Assembly: GCA_038881635.1 (NCBI GenBank) | Contig: JAVZPJ010000001.1 | Coordinates: 62,001 to 126,000, forward strand | Source of the DNA: Sulfolobales archaeon | Lineage (GTDB): Archaea > Thermoproteota > Thermoprotei_A > Sulfolobales > AG1 | Direction of reading: 5' to 3' | DNA: 64,000 bases | Shown here: positions 9,724-32,096 of the stretch, piece after piece | Layout of the letters: each line of letters begins with the position of its first letter | How positions within the stretch are numbered: the stretch's first letter is position 1 | The notes under the pieces: generated by a model | Databases searched by the model: none | What the model was told of the DNA's origin: nothing | The model's input: only the letters and a program-made list of their open reading frames with translations | Translations under genes and position numbers: made by a program

Positions 9724-10500
9724 ATGTTCTTCATAATAGTAGTAGGATTAGCAGGTTCTGGCAAGTCAACTCTCGCATCAGCTTTTAGTGAGTGGCTTTC
9801 ATCTCATAATCTGGATCCAGCTATTATAAATCTGGATCCAGCTGCTGAAAGCCTTCAGTATACTCCTGATTTTGATATTAGAAAATATGTTGATGCTAGA
9901 GATATAATGTATAGGTATAGGCTAGGACCTAATGGAGCTCTTATAACAGCTGTCGATCTCATGGTGAATCACGTGGATGAGATAAGAGAATTTATAGATG
10001 GTAGGAAGGCTAACTATTATATAATAGATACTCCGGGGCAGATGGAAATATTCGCATTTAGAGAGACAGGTCCTCTAATTCTCGATGAGATCATAGGTGA
10101 TAGAAAAGCTGTCACAGTATTTCTAGTAGATTCATCTCTAGCCGTAAGACCTTCTTTCTTCGCTTCATCATTATTTCTGGCTCTCTCAGCCTATGCAAGG
10201 ATCAGAAGACCTCAGATAGGTGTTCTCTCAAAAGCAGATCTATTTCCGGAAGAACAGCTTGAGAGAATAATCTCATGGTCAGAAGATCCCTATCAACTTC
10301 TAACAGATCTAAAGGAAGAAAGATTAGGACTAGTTGAAGATGTGATACTAGCTCTCGCAGAATCAGGTTCTCAATCTATAGAACTTATACCAGTGTCCTC
10401 AGTAACATGGAAGGGCTTTGACGAGCTCTACGCTGCAATACAAAGAGTGTTTGCGGGAGGAGAAGATTACTATACTGAAGAACCCTCTGAGTTCTTCTAA
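9724..10500 (+). CDS. GPN-loop GTPase
   Basis: 258 residues. The P-loop is GLAGSGKS (8-15). The family-defining Gly-Pro-Asn loop is at 68-70 (RLGPNGAL). The G3 motif is DTPGQ (102-106) and G4 is SKAD. Eukaryotic GPN1-3 act as dimers in RNA polymerase II assembly and import. The archaeal form is a homodimer whose role is unproven, but its place beside rpoP and eS26 fits transcription or translation assembly. A TATA-like AATATTTTTATACC lies about 35 nt upstream. The start is ATG at 9724. Confidence 0.92.
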   Translation: MFFIIVVGLAGSGKSTLASAFSEWLSSHNLDPAIINLDPAAESLQYTPDFDIRKYVDARDIMYRYRLGPNGALITAVDLMVNHVDEIREFIDGRKANYYIIDTPGQMEIFAFRETGPLILDEIIGDRKAVTVFLVDSSLAVRPSFFASSLFLALSAYARIRRPQIGVLSKADLFPEEQLERIISWSEDPYQLLTDLKEERLGLVEDVILALAESGSQSIELIPVSSVTWKGFDELYAAIQRVFAGGEDYYTEEPSEFF

Positions 10501-10699
10501 AAATCTTATAATGGAAGCTCTAGAAGTAGAATTCTCAGAGATATATAGATCTTTCTGTTCATTCTTAGATGTTTCTACCCATTTCGATCTGGGAAGATGT
10601 ATCTTCTTCTATGGTGAGAAATCCTCTCGTACTAGAAGTCTGTTGCTCTCAACATGTTAATAAGCTCTCTAATGGTAATAATAAACCAGGCTAAGGTGT

Positions 10700-10993
10700 A
10701 TGCCTAAGAAAAGAGAGAGTAGAGGTAGAAGAAAAGGAGATAAAGGATATATAGGAAGAATACAATGCGATCAATGTGGAGCTCTTGTTCCAGAGGATAA
10801 AGCTATCTGCGTGACTAGAATGTACACACCAGTAGATCCTCAGCTAGCTATAGAGCTTGAGAAGAAGGGCGCTCTAATACCTCGATATCCTGTTAAAAGA
10901 TGCTATTGCGTGAGCTGTGCAATATTCATGGGCATTATCAAGGTCAGAGCTGAGGAGGAGAGAAAGATACCTCCGAAAAGATCTGCATTATAG
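10700..10993 (+). CDS. rps26e: 30S ribosomal protein eS26
   Basis: 97 residues. A basic N-terminus (MPKKRESRGRRKGDKG) precedes the zinc ribbon CDQCG (Cys23/Cys26) paired with CYCVSC (Cys70/Cys73). The family signature VKRCYCVSCAIFMGIIKVR is complete. eS26 contacts mRNA at the exit channel and the 3' end of 16S rRNA. Among archaea it is largely confined to crenarchaea and relatives, which supports the placement. AAGGTGT just before the ATG is the ribosome-binding site. Confidence 0.93.
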   Translation: MPKKRESRGRRKGDKGYIGRIQCDQCGALVPEDKAICVTRMYTPVDPQLAIELEKKGALIPRYPVKRCYCVSCAIFMGIIKVRAEEERKIPPKRSAL

Positions 10994-11059
10994 TAAGACT
11001 GTATCTTTATACTATTTAGAGCATATTATTTCTTAGGATCTTCTGTCCAGGTGTTTAAA

Positions 11060-12892
11060 ATGACAAGACTAGCAGTAATAGACTACGAAAGCTGTCATCC
11101 TGATAAATGCGGTGGAATGCCTTGTGTTAGATTCTGCCCAGTGAATAGAGGTGGTACGATAGCTATTGAACCTAGTAAAGAAAAAGAAGGAAAACCTGTG
11201 ATATATGAGGCTACATGTATAGGTTGTGGAATATGTGTTAAGAAATGCCCCTTTGAAGCTATAAGCATATTAAATATACCTGATGAATTGGAGAAGAAGG
11301 TAATCCACAGATATGGTGTGAATGCATTCAAACTATATGGTCTCCCCACACCCGTTGAAGGAGGGATCGTAGGGATTCTGGGTAAGAACGGTACTGGAAA
11401 AACCACAGCACTAAAAATACTTGGAGGAGAGATCCTTCCTAACCTAGGAGATTATACCAGACCTGCTGAGAAAGATGAGATCTTAAGAAGATTCAGAGGA
11501 TCAGAGATCTATAACCACTTCAGAGATCTTTTCAATAAAAAGATCAGAGTCGTACACAAAATCCAGAATATCGAGATTATACAGAGATATATTAAAGGAA
11601 GAGTCAGAGAAATCCTATCGAGAATAGATGAAAGAGGTCTTCTAAAGGATCTTGTGGAAAGGCTTATGATGCATAATATGATCGATAAGGATGTGAGAGA
11701 ACTGAGCGGTGGAGAGCTTCAGAAACTAGCTATATCAGCAGCTCTTCTCAGAGATGCCAATCTATATCTTTTTGATGAACCATCATCATATCTAGATGTA
11801 GGTGAGAGACTTAGAATAGCTATGAGTATTAGGGATTTTATTCCGAAAAATGCTAGAACTCTGGTTGTAGAACATGATCTAGCAGTTCTCGACTATATAT
11901 CAGATTATGTTTCCATAGTATATGGAGAGCCTGGAGTTTACGGGGTTTTCTCCAGGATCTACGGTGTTAGTGTTGGTATTAATAACTTCCTTCAAGGTTA
12001 TTTACCTTCAGAGAATATGATGATCCGTAGAGAGCCTATAAGATTTCTAGATAAAGAAGCTTCAGAAGATTATAGAGGTGATAAAAAGATTTTAACAGGT
12101 TGGAGTAGACTTAGGAAAAGTATTGGAGGGTTCTCTCTGGATGCTGAGGAAGGAGAGATCTATAGGTCTGAGATCTTAGGAGTTCTAGGACCCAATGCTA
12201 TTGGAAAAACCACCTTCATAAGAATAATAGCTGGCGAGATAGAACCAGATGAGGGTTTCACACATACTACAGGTCTTAGAATAAGCTATAAACCCCAGTT
12301 TATATCAATAGCATCAGTAGGAGGATCTGAGGATGAAACCGTTGAAGAATATATTAGAAGAGAAGCTCCAGATCTCCTCCAACAGGAGAGCTGGCTATAT
12401 GTAGATGTTACGAGAAAACTTGGGATTCATAAAATGCTTACGAAGAAACTTGAAGAACTGAGCGGTGGAGAGCTTCAGAAGATAGTTATTGCTAGAAGTC
12501 TCGCTAAAGATGCAGATATATATCTTCTAGACGAGCCTTCTGCACATATAGATGTTGAAGATAGGATCACGATCTCTAGAGCTATTAGAAGAAGTGTGGA
12601 GAATAGAAATAAAGCTGCCATAGTAGTGGATCATGATCTAAGTATAATTGATTTCATAGCAGATAGAGTTATAGTCTTCAGTGGAGAGCCTGGTGTTAGA
12701 GGTCTTGCTTCAAGTCCTACAGGTCTTAGAAAAGGTATGAATAAACTTCTCTCACAGCTTAAAGTCACCTTTAGAAGAGATCCTAAGACTAGAAGACCTA
12801 GAATGAATAAACCTGGAAGTTATTACGATAGACTTCAGAAAGAAATTGGAGAGTACTACTACACTCCTAAGGAGGAGACTGGGGAAGAATGA
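11060..12892 (+). CDS. ABCE1 (RLI) ribosome-recycling ATPase
   Basis: 610 residues from the ATG at 11060; an in-frame GTG 9 nt earlier is less likely because AGGTG precedes the ATG. The N-terminal part holds two [4Fe-4S] clusters (ESCHPDKCGGMPCVRFCP and CIGCGICVKKCPFEA). Two ABC domains follow: Walker A GILGKNGTGKTT, then GVLGPNAIGKTT, with signature LSGGELQK in both and hinge sequences between. With aPelota or aRF1 it splits ribosomes into subunits after termination. The second P-loop has Ala where GxNGIGKT is usual; the essential G and K-T remain. The gene converges on a ZPR1 gene with a 6-nt gap. Confidence 0.97.
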   Translation: MTRLAVIDYESCHPDKCGGMPCVRFCPVNRGGTIAIEPSKEKEGKPVIYEATCIGCGICVKKCPFEAISILNIPDELEKKVIHRYGVNAFKLYGLPTPVEGGIVGILGKNGTGKTTALKILGGEILPNLGDYTRPAEKDEILRRFRGSEIYNHFRDLFNKKIRVVHKIQNIEIIQRYIKGRVREILSRIDERGLLKDLVERLMMHNMIDKDVRELSGGELQKLAISAALLRDANLYLFDEPSSYLDVGERLRIAMSIRDFIPKNARTLVVEHDLAVLDYISDYVSIVYGEPGVYGVFSRIYGVSVGINNFLQGYLPSENMMIRREPIRFLDKEASEDYRGDKKILTGWSRLRKSIGGFSLDAEEGEIYRSEILGVLGPNAIGKTTFIRIIAGEIEPDEGFTHTTGLRISYKPQFISIASVGGSEDETVEEYIRREAPDLLQQESWLYVDVTRKLGIHKMLTKKLEELSGGELQKIVIARSLAKDADIYLLDEPSAHIDVEDRITISRAIRRSVENRNKAAIVVDHDLSIIDFIADRVIVFSGEPGVRGLASSPTGLRKGMNKLLSQLKVTFRRDPKTRRPRMNKPGSYYDRLQKEIGEYYYTPKEETGEE

Positions 12893-14780: not shown

Positions 14781-15083
14781 GTGGAGTTCTTGTATCAGTG
14801 GAATCCTCGATGGGTGAGAATTAGAGTGAGTATAGAGGGTAGAACTATAGAGACTTGCAGAGATACCACTACAGGTCTTATAATATGCCCCATATGCACG
14901 GATATAAGCCGTATATGTCCTAGCGATAGAGAATATGGTAGTATCACACCTGATAAGGCTGTGTACTTCTTCACTGAAGATGATCTAAGAAATCATATTG
15001 AAGCTCATTCTAGAAGTAGTGAATGGGGTAAGATCACAACGTTTACCGAGGAATCTGAGGAAGAAGAGGAGGAAGAAGAGTGA
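14781..15083 (+). CDS. Zinc-finger protein with poly-glutamate tail
   Basis: 100 residues from GTG (GGGTG context), ending 4 bp inside the next gene. The centre has CPICTDISRICP (about 36-47) and a later HIEAH (about 72-76), which could make a Cys/His zinc site of C2H2 type. The last 12 residues are almost all glutamate, so the tail is disordered and very acidic. The short N-terminal WNPRWVRIRVSIEG stretch is aromatic and basic. The family is unknown to me, though small crenarchaeal proteins of this type are common. The acidic tail suggests docking to a basic partner. Confidence 0.65.
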   Translation: MEFLYQWNPRWVRIRVSIEGRTIETCRDTTTGLIICPICTDISRICPSDREYGSITPDKAVYFFTEDDLRNHIEAHSRSSEWGKITTFTEESEEEEEEEE

Positions 15084-28881: not shown

Positions 28882-29721
28882 ATGATGATCGGTTTCGCCT
28901 ATAGTGTTCAAGACCCTGCTGGGAGAGGTATTGCAGAAAGTCTATCTAGAAGGCTTAGGATCTCATGTAGCAGTGTAGAGGATTTGAAAGCTTCTATAGT
29001 ATGTGATTCTAGGATCAGGGTCATAGGTTTCATAGATGATGTCACAAGCTTTGAATATCTAGATCAATATTTTCCAGAGACTGATCTCATAGCCATTCTC
29101 TCAAGACATAGATCGGAATCAGAGATACCCAGCCTTACAGTACACTACACGGGGAATCCCAGGAGAAGCAATCTCTATGGAGGAAATCCTATGGAGCTAT
29201 CATATACAAGACCTTCTATATCAAATGCTTTTCTAAGAAACATTAAAGATGTTGCTATGGAGAGAGGTTTGGATAGAGATTATGAGATAAGCTTTGAAGC
29301 CACTCATCATGGTCCTACCACTAATAGAAAACCTCTAGTCTTTCTAGAGATAGGTTCTACAGAGGATCAGTGGAAGGATCCTGTGCTTCATGATGCGTGG
29401 GTTGAAGCGATAGCCAGAACTTTATCAGGCTTGAGGGTAAATTGTAACGGTGTAGCAATAGGTGTGGGAGGTACTCATTATTCTGAAAGATTTACGAGAT
29501 TAAGCATTGAAGAGGGGGTGTGCATGAGTCATATAATTCCTAGGTATGCTTTAAAAGAGCTTTCCGAAGAAGATCTTATTTTAATAGTGGATCAGGCTAT
29601 TAGAAAGACCTTGGAGAAGGTGGAGCTTCTTGTAGTAGAGAGGAAATCTCTCAGCTCTTCACATATTAGATCTTTAGAGGAGAAGTTTTCTAGAGAGGGT
29701 ATAGAGGTTAGAAGAATATGA
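28882..29721 (+). CDS. dtdA: D-aminoacyl-tRNA deacylase, archaeal/plant type (DTD2)
   Basis: 279 residues. The family pattern is complete: YSVQDPAGRGIA at the N-terminus, LSRHRSESEIPSLTVHYTGN (about 72-91), SFEATHHGPTT (about 137-147, the catalytic and zinc His residues), FLEIGSTEDQWKD and GVGGTHYSERFT. It hydrolyses D-amino acids mischarged on tRNA and, in plants, aldehyde-modified aminoacyl-tRNA. tRNase Z overlaps its end by 4 bp, so the two are translationally coupled. Confidence 0.95.
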   Translation: MMIGFAYSVQDPAGRGIAESLSRRLRISCSSVEDLKASIVCDSRIRVIGFIDDVTSFEYLDQYFPETDLIAILSRHRSESEIPSLTVHYTGNPRRSNLYGGNPMELSYTRPSISNAFLRNIKDVAMERGLDRDYEISFEATHHGPTTNRKPLVFLEIGSTEDQWKDPVLHDAWVEAIARTLSGLRVNCNGVAIGVGGTHYSERFTRLSIEEGVCMSHIIPRYALKELSEEDLILIVDQAIRKTLEKVELLVVERKSLSSSHIRSLEEKFSREGIEVRRI

Positions 29722-30479
29722 TTAAAATATATTTTCTAGGTACCGGAGCTGGCTCTCCAACTCTCATGAGATGGGCTCCTTCAATTGCTATCTCAAACGA
29801 GGGTGAGATAGGTCTTCTAGACTGCGGAGAAGGCTGTCAGCTAAGGCTTCAAGATGCTGGCATATCTATTCAAAGGATAAGATTTATAGCCTTAACACAT
29901 ACCCATGGAGATCACATCTCAGGACTTCTTCCACTGCTTCAATCTATGACTCTTCATGATAGAAAAAACACTCTAGATATCATAGCTCCTCTTATGATAA
30001 AAGATCTTGTTGATTCTTTTCTAAGAATATCAGGTCACAAGCCCTCTTTCAACATAGAGTTCAGAGATCCTCTTTCTACTAATACTTATAATAGAGTCAG
30101 TGTTAAAGGTTTTAGATCTTGCCACACAATAGAGAGCTATGGATATCTAGTAGAAGCTAGATCTAGAAGAGGTTTTGTTAGAATATGCTACACCGGAGAT
30201 ACAGAGTTTTGTAGAGAAGTGATCGAAAGGTGTAGAGGAGTTGATATTATGATTCATGATTCAACATTCTCCTCAGAACACTCTCAAGAAGCATTGATCT
30301 CAAGACATAGCACCGCCGAGGATGCTGCTAGAGCTGCTGCGGAATCTGGTGCAGAAAGACTCTACCTATTTCACATAAGCTCTAGATACAGCGATCTAGA
30401 GGAGATCCTTAGAGAAGCGAGAAAAATTTTTAAAAACACCTACATTGCTAATGATCTGGATACTATTGTTATATTGTAA
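29718..30479 (+). CDS. rnz: tRNase Z (short form)
   Basis: 253 residues, metallo-beta-lactamase fold. The signature HTHGDH is at 61-66. Further metal ligands are seen in CHTIESYGY (about 135), YTGDTEF (Asp about 157) and LFHISSRY near the C-terminus. It cuts precursor tRNA just 3' of the discriminator base. The short form works as a homodimer. It is coupled to dtdA and ends 3 bp from the convergent Glu/Trp mini-gene. Confidence 0.94.
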   Translation: MIKIYFLGTGAGSPTLMRWAPSIAISNEGEIGLLDCGEGCQLRLQDAGISIQRIRFIALTHTHGDHISGLLPLLQSMTLHDRKNTLDIIAPLMIKDLVDSFLRISGHKPSFNIEFRDPLSTNTYNRVSVKGFRSCHTIESYGYLVEARSRRGFVRICYTGDTEFCREVIERCRGVDIMIHDSTFSSEHSQEALISRHSTAEDAARAAAESGAERLYLFHISSRYSDLEEILREARKIFKNTYIANDLDTIVIL

Positions 30480-30482
30480 AAA

Positions 30483-30644
30483 TTACTCCTCTTCTTCTTC
30501 CTCCTCCTCTTCCTCCCACTCTTCTTCTTCCTCTTCTCCCCACTCCTCTTCTTCTTCCTCCTCCCACTCCAGTTCTTCTTCTTCCCATTCTTCCTCTTCT
30601 TCTTCCTCCTCTTCTTCCTCGAATCTCAAAGGCTTTGGCACCAT
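30483..30644 (-). CDS. 53-residue glutamate/tryptophan mini-protein
   Basis: On the minus strand, an ATG at 30644 opens a 53-codon frame ending with TAA. After the N-terminus MVPKPLRF the rest is a Glu-only tract broken by four Trp, one Leu and one Gly: E11-W-E4-L-E-W-E7-W-G-E6-W-E10. By my count 39 of 53 residues are Glu. GGTGG lies 4 nt before the ATG, and a TATA box TTTATAAGC is at 30676-30684. Both support expression. The same DNA read on the plus strand gives poly-Ser and is a shadow. I know no such family. It must be disordered and very acidic, perhaps a nucleic-acid mimic or chaperone-like buffer. Confidence 0.7.
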   Translation of the reverse strand: MVPKPLRFEEEEEEEEEEEWEEEELEWEEEEEEEWGEEEEEEWEEEEEEEEEE

Positions 30645-30675
30645 GAACCCACCACAGAATAACGCATTATGAGAG

Positions 30676-30684
30676 CTTATAAAT
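30676..30684 (-). promoter_or_regulatory. TATA box of the Glu/Trp mini-gene
   Basis: On the minus strand, TTTATAAGC lies in the context ATTTTATTTATAAGC. It sits 32 to 40 nt before the ATG, leaving room for a short leader that carries GGTGG. Confidence 0.55.
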
Positions 30685-30710: not shown

Positions 30711-32096
30711 CTATGCTCTTCTCACTATTAATAGAAAATCTTTCTTCGCGACTACCACAATTCTATCTCCAGGTTTTATATAATCCTTTTCTGAGATCGC
30801 TCTCCAAAGCTCTCCTTCAACTAGAACGAAGCCTTCTTTCTCAGGTGTTATCTCATCTCTCGCGACACCCTCCTTACCAGTAATCTCAAATATTCTATGC
30901 CTGATTCTCATGGATCTGACGAGTTGTAGTGCTATGAAAGCTCCTATAGATCCTGCTCCTACACCTATTCCCAGGGATGCATAGTATAGTGAAGTTAAAA
31001 CTCCTTCGGTTCCTGACACGAGTATTTCTCTTCCTACTACTGGGAGGAACATTCCTCCTAATCCTAGTAAGATTAAACCTGAAACTATGAGAATACCTCC
31101 ATCGCTCCCTCCTAAGATTATTCCTCCTCCTAGAAATGCTATTCCAAGGACTATCATTATAACTGATATTAAACTGATATTGAATCCAGAGCCTAGAAGA
31201 CCTAGAAAGAGGAATATAAGTGCTATAGGTATTCCTATTAAATGTCCTGATGCTATCGAGAATATTATCGAAAATACTGCTATAGTAATCATTATACCAC
31301 TGATCGTGGGATCTGAGAAGAGACTTAGAACACTACATGTGATACACTCAGGAGCATTTTCCAATCTCTCTATATTGAGCACGTATGTTACATCTCCTAT
31401 CTTTACCTCTCTCCCTCTAATCTTGTTCACGAGATCTTCTAGAGATACAGCATTTAGATCTGCTACCTTATATCTTACTGCTTCAACACCGTTCACAACC
31501 GTGGCATTTAGTATGAATTCCCTTACCAGGGTCGCGTTTCTCCCTCTTATCTCAGCTATGTCGGTATACTTTTTTATGAGAGGATTTATGATCTTAGGCT
31601 CTGTAATAGGTGTGATCTCGCCTGTAGGACCTATGGTCACAGGTTGTGCATCACCTATATTAGCATGTGGATTCACAGCAAGTATGTGTGTGGGTATGAG
31701 TATTAGAGTAGCTCCGCTATAACTATCTCCTGATGCAAATCCTATTACCGGTACTTTAGAGTTCATTATCATATCTGTTATATCCATTGTATCTCCTAGA
31801 AAGCCTCCTGGAGAGTTTGTATCCATAATCAGCGCAGCTCCTTCTGATTCAGCTTTATCTAATGCTATTCTAAGATAGTTTTTAACTCCCTGATCAATGG
31901 TTCCTCTCACATAGGCTACATAGGCTTTTGTAATAACAGAAGTCTGGTTCTGGAGATCTATAAAACCTCTGTTATATGTGATCTGGGAAGCATCAGAATT
32001 ATTTGATAATAACAATAGTAGGAAGAGTATTAAAACAAAGACCAGAGATCCTCTGAAAAATCTCTTGGAGAAGCTAGAATATTTTAGTCTCATCAT
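30711..32096 (-). CDS. nfeD: NfeD-type membrane-bound serine protease (ClpP-like)
   Basis: 461 residues. A signal or anchor helix (about 15-31) precedes a ClpP-fold extracellular protease domain: AALIMDTNSPGGFLGDTMDI, then GDSYSGATLIL with the likely nucleophile Ser127, and Lys168 as candidate base. Four to five membrane helices follow (about 255-390). A cytosolic OB-fold NfeD domain ends the protein (VEGELWRAISEKDYIKPGDRIVVV, about 426-449). Archaeal homologues cleave the C-terminus of the partner stomatin. The stomatin gene is just upstream and overlaps by 4 bp. Confidence 0.92.
   Translation of the reverse strand: MMRLKYSSFSKRFFRGSLVFVLILFLLLLLSNNSDASQITYNRGFIDLQNQTSVITKAYVAYVRGTIDQGVKNYLRIALDKAESEGAALIMDTNSPGGFLGDTMDITDMIMNSKVPVIGFASGDSYSGATLILIPTHILAVNPHANIGDAQPVTIGPTGEITPITEPKIINPLIKKYTDIAEIRGRNATLVREFILNATVVNGVEAVRYKVADLNAVSLEDLVNKIRGREVKIGDVTYVLNIERLENAPECITCSVLSLFSDPTISGIMITIAVFSIIFSIASGHLIGIPIALIFLFLGLLGSGFNISLISVIMIVLGIAFLGGGIILGGSDGGILIVSGLILLGLGGMFLPVVGREILVSGTEGVLTSLYYASLGIGVGAGSIGAFIALQLVRSMRIRHRIFEITGKEGVARDEITPEKEGFVLVEGELWRAISEKDYIKPGDRIVVVAKKDFLLIVRRA

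Follow-up and report, generated by a model that had tools for sequence, protein, structure and literature searches.

On the minus strand of the window, the 64,000-nucleotide stretch of Sulfolobales DNA analysed here, an open reading frame of 53 codons and a stop at 30483-30644 encodes MVPKPLRFEEEEEEEEEEEWEEEELEWEEEEEEEWGEEEEEEWEEEEEEEEEE, an almost pure Glu protein with spaced Trp residues that we call EW. The coding region itself covers 30486-30644, and its assignment draws on an orthologue in the congener G001 and on family-wide selection at the protein level. A recount returns the 39 Glu and 4 Trp that the earlier note on this DNA had given, with Glu written as 22 GAA and 17 GAG codons, and the net charge is about -37 over 53 residues. 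Across all six frames of the window, the best 40-residue stretch lies in EW and holds 34 Glu, compared to 13 for the runner-up. The Trp residues are found at positions 20, 27, 35 and 43. The spacing of 11, 6, 7 and 7 residues previously assigned to them describes the stretches between Trp and not the Trp-Trp distances, which are 7, 8 and 8. The chain ends in EEE, without a terminal Trp, and EW is present as a single copy in this genome.

The stop codon of EW (30483-30485) and that of the convergent rnz gene for RNase Z (30477-30479; gene at 29718-30479, plus strand) are separated by 3 bp, in agreement with the earlier description. On the 5' side of EW lies an SppA/NfeD-like gene (30711-32096, minus strand), which is kept beside EW in the congener G001. 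Both genes are context, and rnz stands outside the system. The two expression signals proposed earlier are present: a Shine-Dalgarno-like GGTGG at 30649-30653, 4 nt 5' of the ATG, and a TATA-box-like TTTATAAG at 30676-30683, about 35 nt 5' of the ATG, both on the minus strand. If TTTATAAG acts as the TATA box, it would leave the EW transcript with a leader of about 10 nt. Such signals are enriched across the family, with Shine-Dalgarno-like sites in 109 of 152 members (22.5 expected from shuffles) and TATA-like sites in 91 of 152 (28.7 expected), and all five members of the window's own family carry a TATA-like site; as the sequences are related to one another, these counts and those on selection given below are not independent.

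Two further loci of the window are of interest. The gene for ABCE1, the ribosome-recycling Fe-S ATPase and putative functional partner of EW, is found at 11051-12892 on the plus strand (PF04068 match G000:C1:73063), with eS26 just before it, about 18 kb from EW. Here a GPN-type GTPase, eS26 and ABCE1 follow in a row (9724-12892, plus strand) as a run of translation genes. The small CxxC protein at 14781-15083 (plus strand) had been linked to EW through its Glu tail. The tail, EESEEEEEEEE, is real, but it has no Trp and the protein is no member of the family.

The EW family and selection on its protein

A protein search with the window EW protein recovers only itself among 98 genomes and misses even the congener, probably because the low-complexity correction makes such searches blind to its relatives. 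After this search had failed, relatives were sought by degenerate DNA patterns and by synteny, and the congener locus was found through the rnz loci of relatives with a subsequent scan for acidic ORFs. In G001 the orthologue MVPRPLRFEEEEEEPWEEEEEWEEEEEEEEEEEWGEEELEWEEEEEEEPWEEEEEWEEEEEEEEEEE occupies L003:1287-1487, between the SppA/NfeD gene and rnz. The rnz proteins of the two genomes are just 60% identical, and the place of EW is nonetheless kept. The earlier note had named loss of the frame in relatives, together with lack of a transcript, as what would speak against a real gene; the congener keeps the frame, in the same place. Further members of the window's family, f1, are Glu/aromatic ORFs at other loci, as in G004 (MKRFEEEEEWEEEEEEELEEEEWEEEELEEEEEEWEEEEFEEEEEEEEEEW). 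G002 carries Phe in place of most Trp, and G003 is similar. Two base changes are needed to turn a Trp codon into a Phe codon; therefore, it is the aromatic character that is kept.

DNA patterns for Glu/Trp strings match 43 of the 197 genomes of the order, with 2 matches for the reversed control, and a looser pattern matches 87 of the 197. At the level of the phylum, W-E5-W is found in 61 of 398 genomes and its reversed control in none. Nearly all translated matches of the two stricter scans, in order and phylum, are stand-alone ORFs of about 22-73 aa. We conclude that EW is a real gene family, mostly of heat-loving archaea, with at least one member in 24 families of the window's phylum, a count that comes from sampled genomes; f1 and the like are search labels, and lineage names are those suggested by the matching loci. 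Examples are MMFEEEWEEEEEEWWEEEEEWEEEEW in f3 (Ignisphaera), MVVYFEEEWWEEEEEEWEEEEEWWEEEEEW in f9, MPIWYYREEEEWEEEEELWEEFEEEWEEEEEW in f22 (Pyrobaculum) and EEDWEDIEEEDWEDIEEEDWEEEEW in f11. Among the named carriers are Ignisphaera, Zestosphaera, Thermodiscus, Pyrobaculum, Thermofilaceae and Calditenuaceae, as well as Methanomethylicota, Nezhaarchaeota, Bathyarchaeota, Hecatellales, Thermococcus and Baldrarchaeum. That carriers are thermophilic is our impression from such hot-spring and hydrothermal-vent lineages.

EW ORFs also occur in Thermococcales and rarely in Asgard archaea. The form in the Thermococcus family begins with M-Q-P-P-K-K-K-K, followed by a Glu/Asp/Trp tail in which Trp is usually last. 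In the phylum of the Asgard MAG, a one-mismatch pattern matches just 5 of 227 genomes, some with genuine-looking acidic-Trp ORFs and others not, and patterns of this kind are thus not generically abundant. Two short Asgard-phylum ORFs, L442 and L443, combine a basic or proline-rich start (MKPPKQTKK..., MGPRLPRKD...) with a Glu/Asp/Trp tail and resemble the Thermococcus form. A sequence so simple could arise repeatedly, and the groups, above all those of Thermococcales and Asgard archaea, may have more than one origin.

Related compositions are also seen on larger proteins. The Pyrobaculum-type genome G219 (f22) has a normal stand-alone EW copy (L097) and two paralogues, L095:2501-2875 and L096:2171-2521, in which an EW tail is fused to a folded-looking domain of about 70 residues. 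In Bacteroidia MAGs (L137, L169, L240), longer Asp/Glu/Trp-rich C-terminal tails are carried by bacterial proteins, probably independently of EW. We considered and rejected a viral origin: the 15 W-E5-W matches on viral contigs are parts of other proteins or fragments, with no stand-alone Glu/Trp gene among them.

The pattern of sequence change shows that EW codes for a protein under purifying selection. When relatives of equal length are compared in 87 pairs, the differences divide as 84:77:654 over the first, second and third codon position. Because the patterns that yielded most members themselves include Glu and Trp, composition statistics are biased, and figures from outside the patterns are given alongside; outside every search pattern, the differences are 37:30:252. 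GAA and GAG are equally common, and the other all-purine codons AAA, AAG, AGA, AGG, GGA and GGG together account for only 17 of 2326 core codons outside the patterns, which argues against a mere polypurine tract. An antisense Ser frame is likewise unlikely, because any third base would be allowed there, yet 199 Asp codons face 3485 Glu codons. The mixture of GAA and GAG that had been taken to speak against a trinucleotide slip in the window gene extends to the whole family: neighbouring Glu codons differ in 1291 of 2293 pairs, compared to 1089 expected, and within a gene the same Glu codon recurs at most 2-5 times in a row, as if slippage-prone repeats had been purged. With codons alternating, single-codon runs this short and changes mostly synonymous, we rejected a microsatellite ORF. 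Rfam returned no match for EW, and an RNA family was rejected as well.

Selection also extends to the arrangement of the aromatic residues. They are mostly Trp, sometimes Phe or Tyr, and recur every 4-8 residues; in all 25 groups they are spaced more evenly than expected at random. The earlier suggestion that regular spacing reflects selection holds beyond the window. Trp is the C-terminal residue in 129 of 155 members (112 of 136 distinct proteins), compared to a share of about 15% of all residues. The terminal aromatic is absent from the window protein, G001, f5, f37 and part of f2.

The ABCE1 neighbourhood

ABCE1 is the conserved neighbour of EW across deep lineages of the phylum. In f2, f3, f7, f10, f11, f13, f14, f16, f40, f43 and f45, EW is codirectional with ABCE1 and lies no more than about 650 bp upstream of it; a few dozen bases separate the two in most f11 genomes. 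The recurring order, in the window's order and beyond it, is Urm1-like, Cgi121-like, EW, sometimes a TFS-like zinc-ribbon gene, and ABCE1, where the Cgi121 assignment is a match below cut-off (27.8 vs 40 bits). This ABCE1 link and the C-terminal Trp of most relatives had been overlooked in the earlier note. The adjacency was also checked free of any Glu/Trp pattern, by locating the ABCE1 loci of 28 further genomes through PF04068 and scanning them for acidic ORFs. EW ORFs are found in G014, G034, G449, G353 and G464, in the last two at about 0.9 kb from ABCE1. Gene contexts that join Ubl, S17, thermosome and Cgi121 were described in a 2010 study (PMC2948915), and a text search of that paper finds neither RLI (ABCE1) nor 'acidic'. 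The zinc-ribbon gene that lies between EW and ABCE1 in several lineages (for example L039:1742-2041 and L047:1652-2023) encodes a protein of about 95 aa with an RPB9-type ribbon, a weak TFS match and an acidic C-terminus, and may be a third member of the neighbourhood.

Other lineages depart from this arrangement. In f9, EW is mostly inverted or divergent beside the same neighbour genes, and in f1, f4, f5, f22, f23, f35, f37 and Thermococcales it lies away from ABCE1. With EW elsewhere in so many groups and mostly divergent in f9, the adjacency may reflect an inherited place and not a shared function. In f4 (L118-L120), EW is found behind a long HEAT-repeat protein, convergent with the gene for an aldehyde ferredoxin oxidoreductase. 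The genomes of f15 and f51 have ABCE1, and neither the phylum pattern nor the acidic-ORF scan of their ABCE1 loci found EW, so ABCE1 does not universally need EW.

From the gene orders, the ancestral place of EW is probably upstream of ABCE1 and downstream of Cgi121. Within the window's family, G003 still has EW behind the Urm1-like/Cgi121 pair, and G004 retains the other neighbour of G003; therefore, EW most likely moved to rnz within the window's genus. The terminal Trp was most likely lost in this genus as well. The rnz neighbourhood emphasised in the earlier note is thus conserved in the congener and special to this genus only.

Possible function of EW

Our preferred reading, which we hold tentatively, is that EW is a trans-acting acidic-aromatic binding peptide that serves ABCE1 or ribosome recycling. 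We infer action in trans because no codirectional ABCE1 lies directly downstream in the window, f5 and f9, and the gene neighbourhood makes ABCE1 or its ribosomal particle the likeliest client. In window-type lineages, EW away from the ABCE1 locus and with its own promoter would have no requirement for cis. The peptide would be polyanionic, with the Trp side chains between its charges kept exposed. It could dock on a basic surface of ABCE1 or of its particle (30S/50S), and at high temperature the ribosome-splitting factor would thereby stay soluble, be kept inactive or remain properly loaded. A physical precedent is APLF, whose acidic, aromatic-anchored domain acts as a chaperone of basic proteins (PMC9328677). 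EW shares with it the acidic tract with spaced aromatics, in composition and in spacing, and a plausible binding of basic surfaces. It differs in that the APLF domain is part of a larger eukaryotic protein, whereas EW is a stand-alone archaeal product of almost pure Glu and Trp with no histone link shown.

The aromatic residues have no overall helical phase (mean R 0.349 vs 0.337), with f22, f3 and f13 leaning towards one, which favours a flexible chain in which acidic spacers separate aromatic anchors. The AlphaFold2 model is a single long helix at pLDDT 91, a value that carries little weight for a poly-Glu chain. An amphipathic helix was rejected since the overall phase is absent and the predicted helix is not counted as evidence.

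The same charge and aromatic anchors would also suit a polyanion with a general role, as a chaperone of basic chromatin or ribosomal proteins at high temperature or as a nucleic-acid mimic for them, with the place beside ABCE1 merely inherited. Nucleic-acid mimicry and the buffering of basic proteins were among the functions offered in the earlier note, as was cation binding, and any of the three may still apply to EW. A net charge of about -37 in 53 residues, aromatic anchors like those that are working parts of the histone chaperone APLF (PMC9328677), the hot-spring and vent lineages among the carriers, and the EW copies far from ABCE1 are all consistent with it. However, ABCE1 adjacency is kept in 11 families while other neighbours change, and a general buffer needs neither a fixed Trp spacing nor a terminal Trp. 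We regard this general role as somewhat unlikely.

The terminal Trp brings to mind Fe-S loading. EW could be an adaptor that delivers ABCE1 to the apparatus for Fe-S insertion, with its C-terminal aromatic carboxylate in the role that the eukaryotic CIA-targeting (TCR) tripeptide plays in Lto1. In yeast, Lto1, together with Yae1, brings the ABCE1 homologue Rli1 to the CIA complex via a C-terminal Trp (PMC4523923), and such binding depends above all on the terminal carboxylate together with the aromatic side chain (PMC13082141). The conserved neighbour of EW is an Fe-S protein, the ABCE1 association resting for EW on gene neighbourhood, and the frequency of Trp-COOH is high although Trp is a minor residue. 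Other Fe-S enzymes are found next to some relocated copies: in f5 a radical-SAM methylthiotransferase, in f4 the aldehyde ferredoxin oxidoreductase. The details fit less well. The Lto1-type end is [LIM]-[DES]-[WF]-COOH, and most EW relatives end in EEW, which agrees at the acidic and aromatic positions and places Glu where the consensus has an aliphatic residue. The deca-GX3 motif for Yae1 binding is absent from EW members, which are almost without Gly, and the members that lack the terminal aromatic include the window protein. The TCR signal is reported to be almost never present in Fe-S proteins of bacteria and archaea (PMC10623007), and an adaptor role would not account for the long runs of Glu and the Trp residues inside them. 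An adaptor function is therefore rather improbable.

Position alone would allow EW to be a cis-acting leader peptide whose Glu/Trp translation destabilises or stalls ribosomes and so regulates ABCE1 downstream. Acidic nascent chains can destabilise ribosomes in E. coli, and this would suit the control of a ribosome-splitting factor. EW resembles attenuator leader peptides as a short ORF directly 5' of a larger gene in many lineages, here of ABCE1 in 11 families. In contrast to such peptides, EW is kept equally well without a codirectional gene in cis: in the window and G001 it is convergent with rnz and has no gene of its own direction immediately behind it, the window's ABCE1 is about 18 kb off, and EW and ABCE1 are not in cis in f9, f5 and other groups either. 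Regulation of this kind is very improbable. That there is no protein at all, but either a polypyrimidine/polypurine element of the DNA, such as a terminator for rnz, or an ORF of low complexity that arose by chance, draws on the pyrimidine-rich opposite strand 3 bp past the rnz stop and can be dismissed in view of the codon-position pattern, the Trp-to-Phe swaps, the kept frame, start and stop, the enriched Shine-Dalgarno and TATA signals, the near absence of other all-purine codons and of Asp codons, and the arrangements in which EW is codirectional to both neighbours.

EW can also be compared to LysW-type amino-group carrier proteins, which we take to resemble it in being small and acidic. 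Bathyarchaeal EW proteins contain a string resembling EDWGE, and EW-like tails are found on some bacterial zinc-ribbon proteins. EW differs by having no zinc ribbon and usually Trp as its last residue, and LysX/ArgX neighbours are not seen. LysW-like zinc-ribbon proteins with long Glu/Trp-rich acidic tails are present in Chloroflexi (L202, L158, L179) and in an unclassified bacterium (L175).

What the family adds

Four divergent EW members have no match in Pfam (E up to 1) or NCBIfam (0.01), where low complexity may hide matches, and two members have no credible match among PDB chains. Among the open-licence papers searched, we found none on such a family and none with EEEWEEEE in an archaeal context; a paper or annotation elsewhere is possible. 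That the EW family has gone undescribed appears to be due to standard protein searches, which handle such sequences as low complexity. What we claim as new is the family with its context; as a physical principle, aromatic anchors in an acidic tract are already known.

If ABCE1 is the partner of the binding peptide that we propose, ribosome recycling in these archaea gains a further component, and EW would bear on the delivery of the Fe-S clusters to archaeal ABCE1, which we take to be an open question. EW is also a warning that small proteins of such kind get missed. Regardless of ABCE1, it represents a natural minimal stickers-and-spacers peptide under selection across a phylum.
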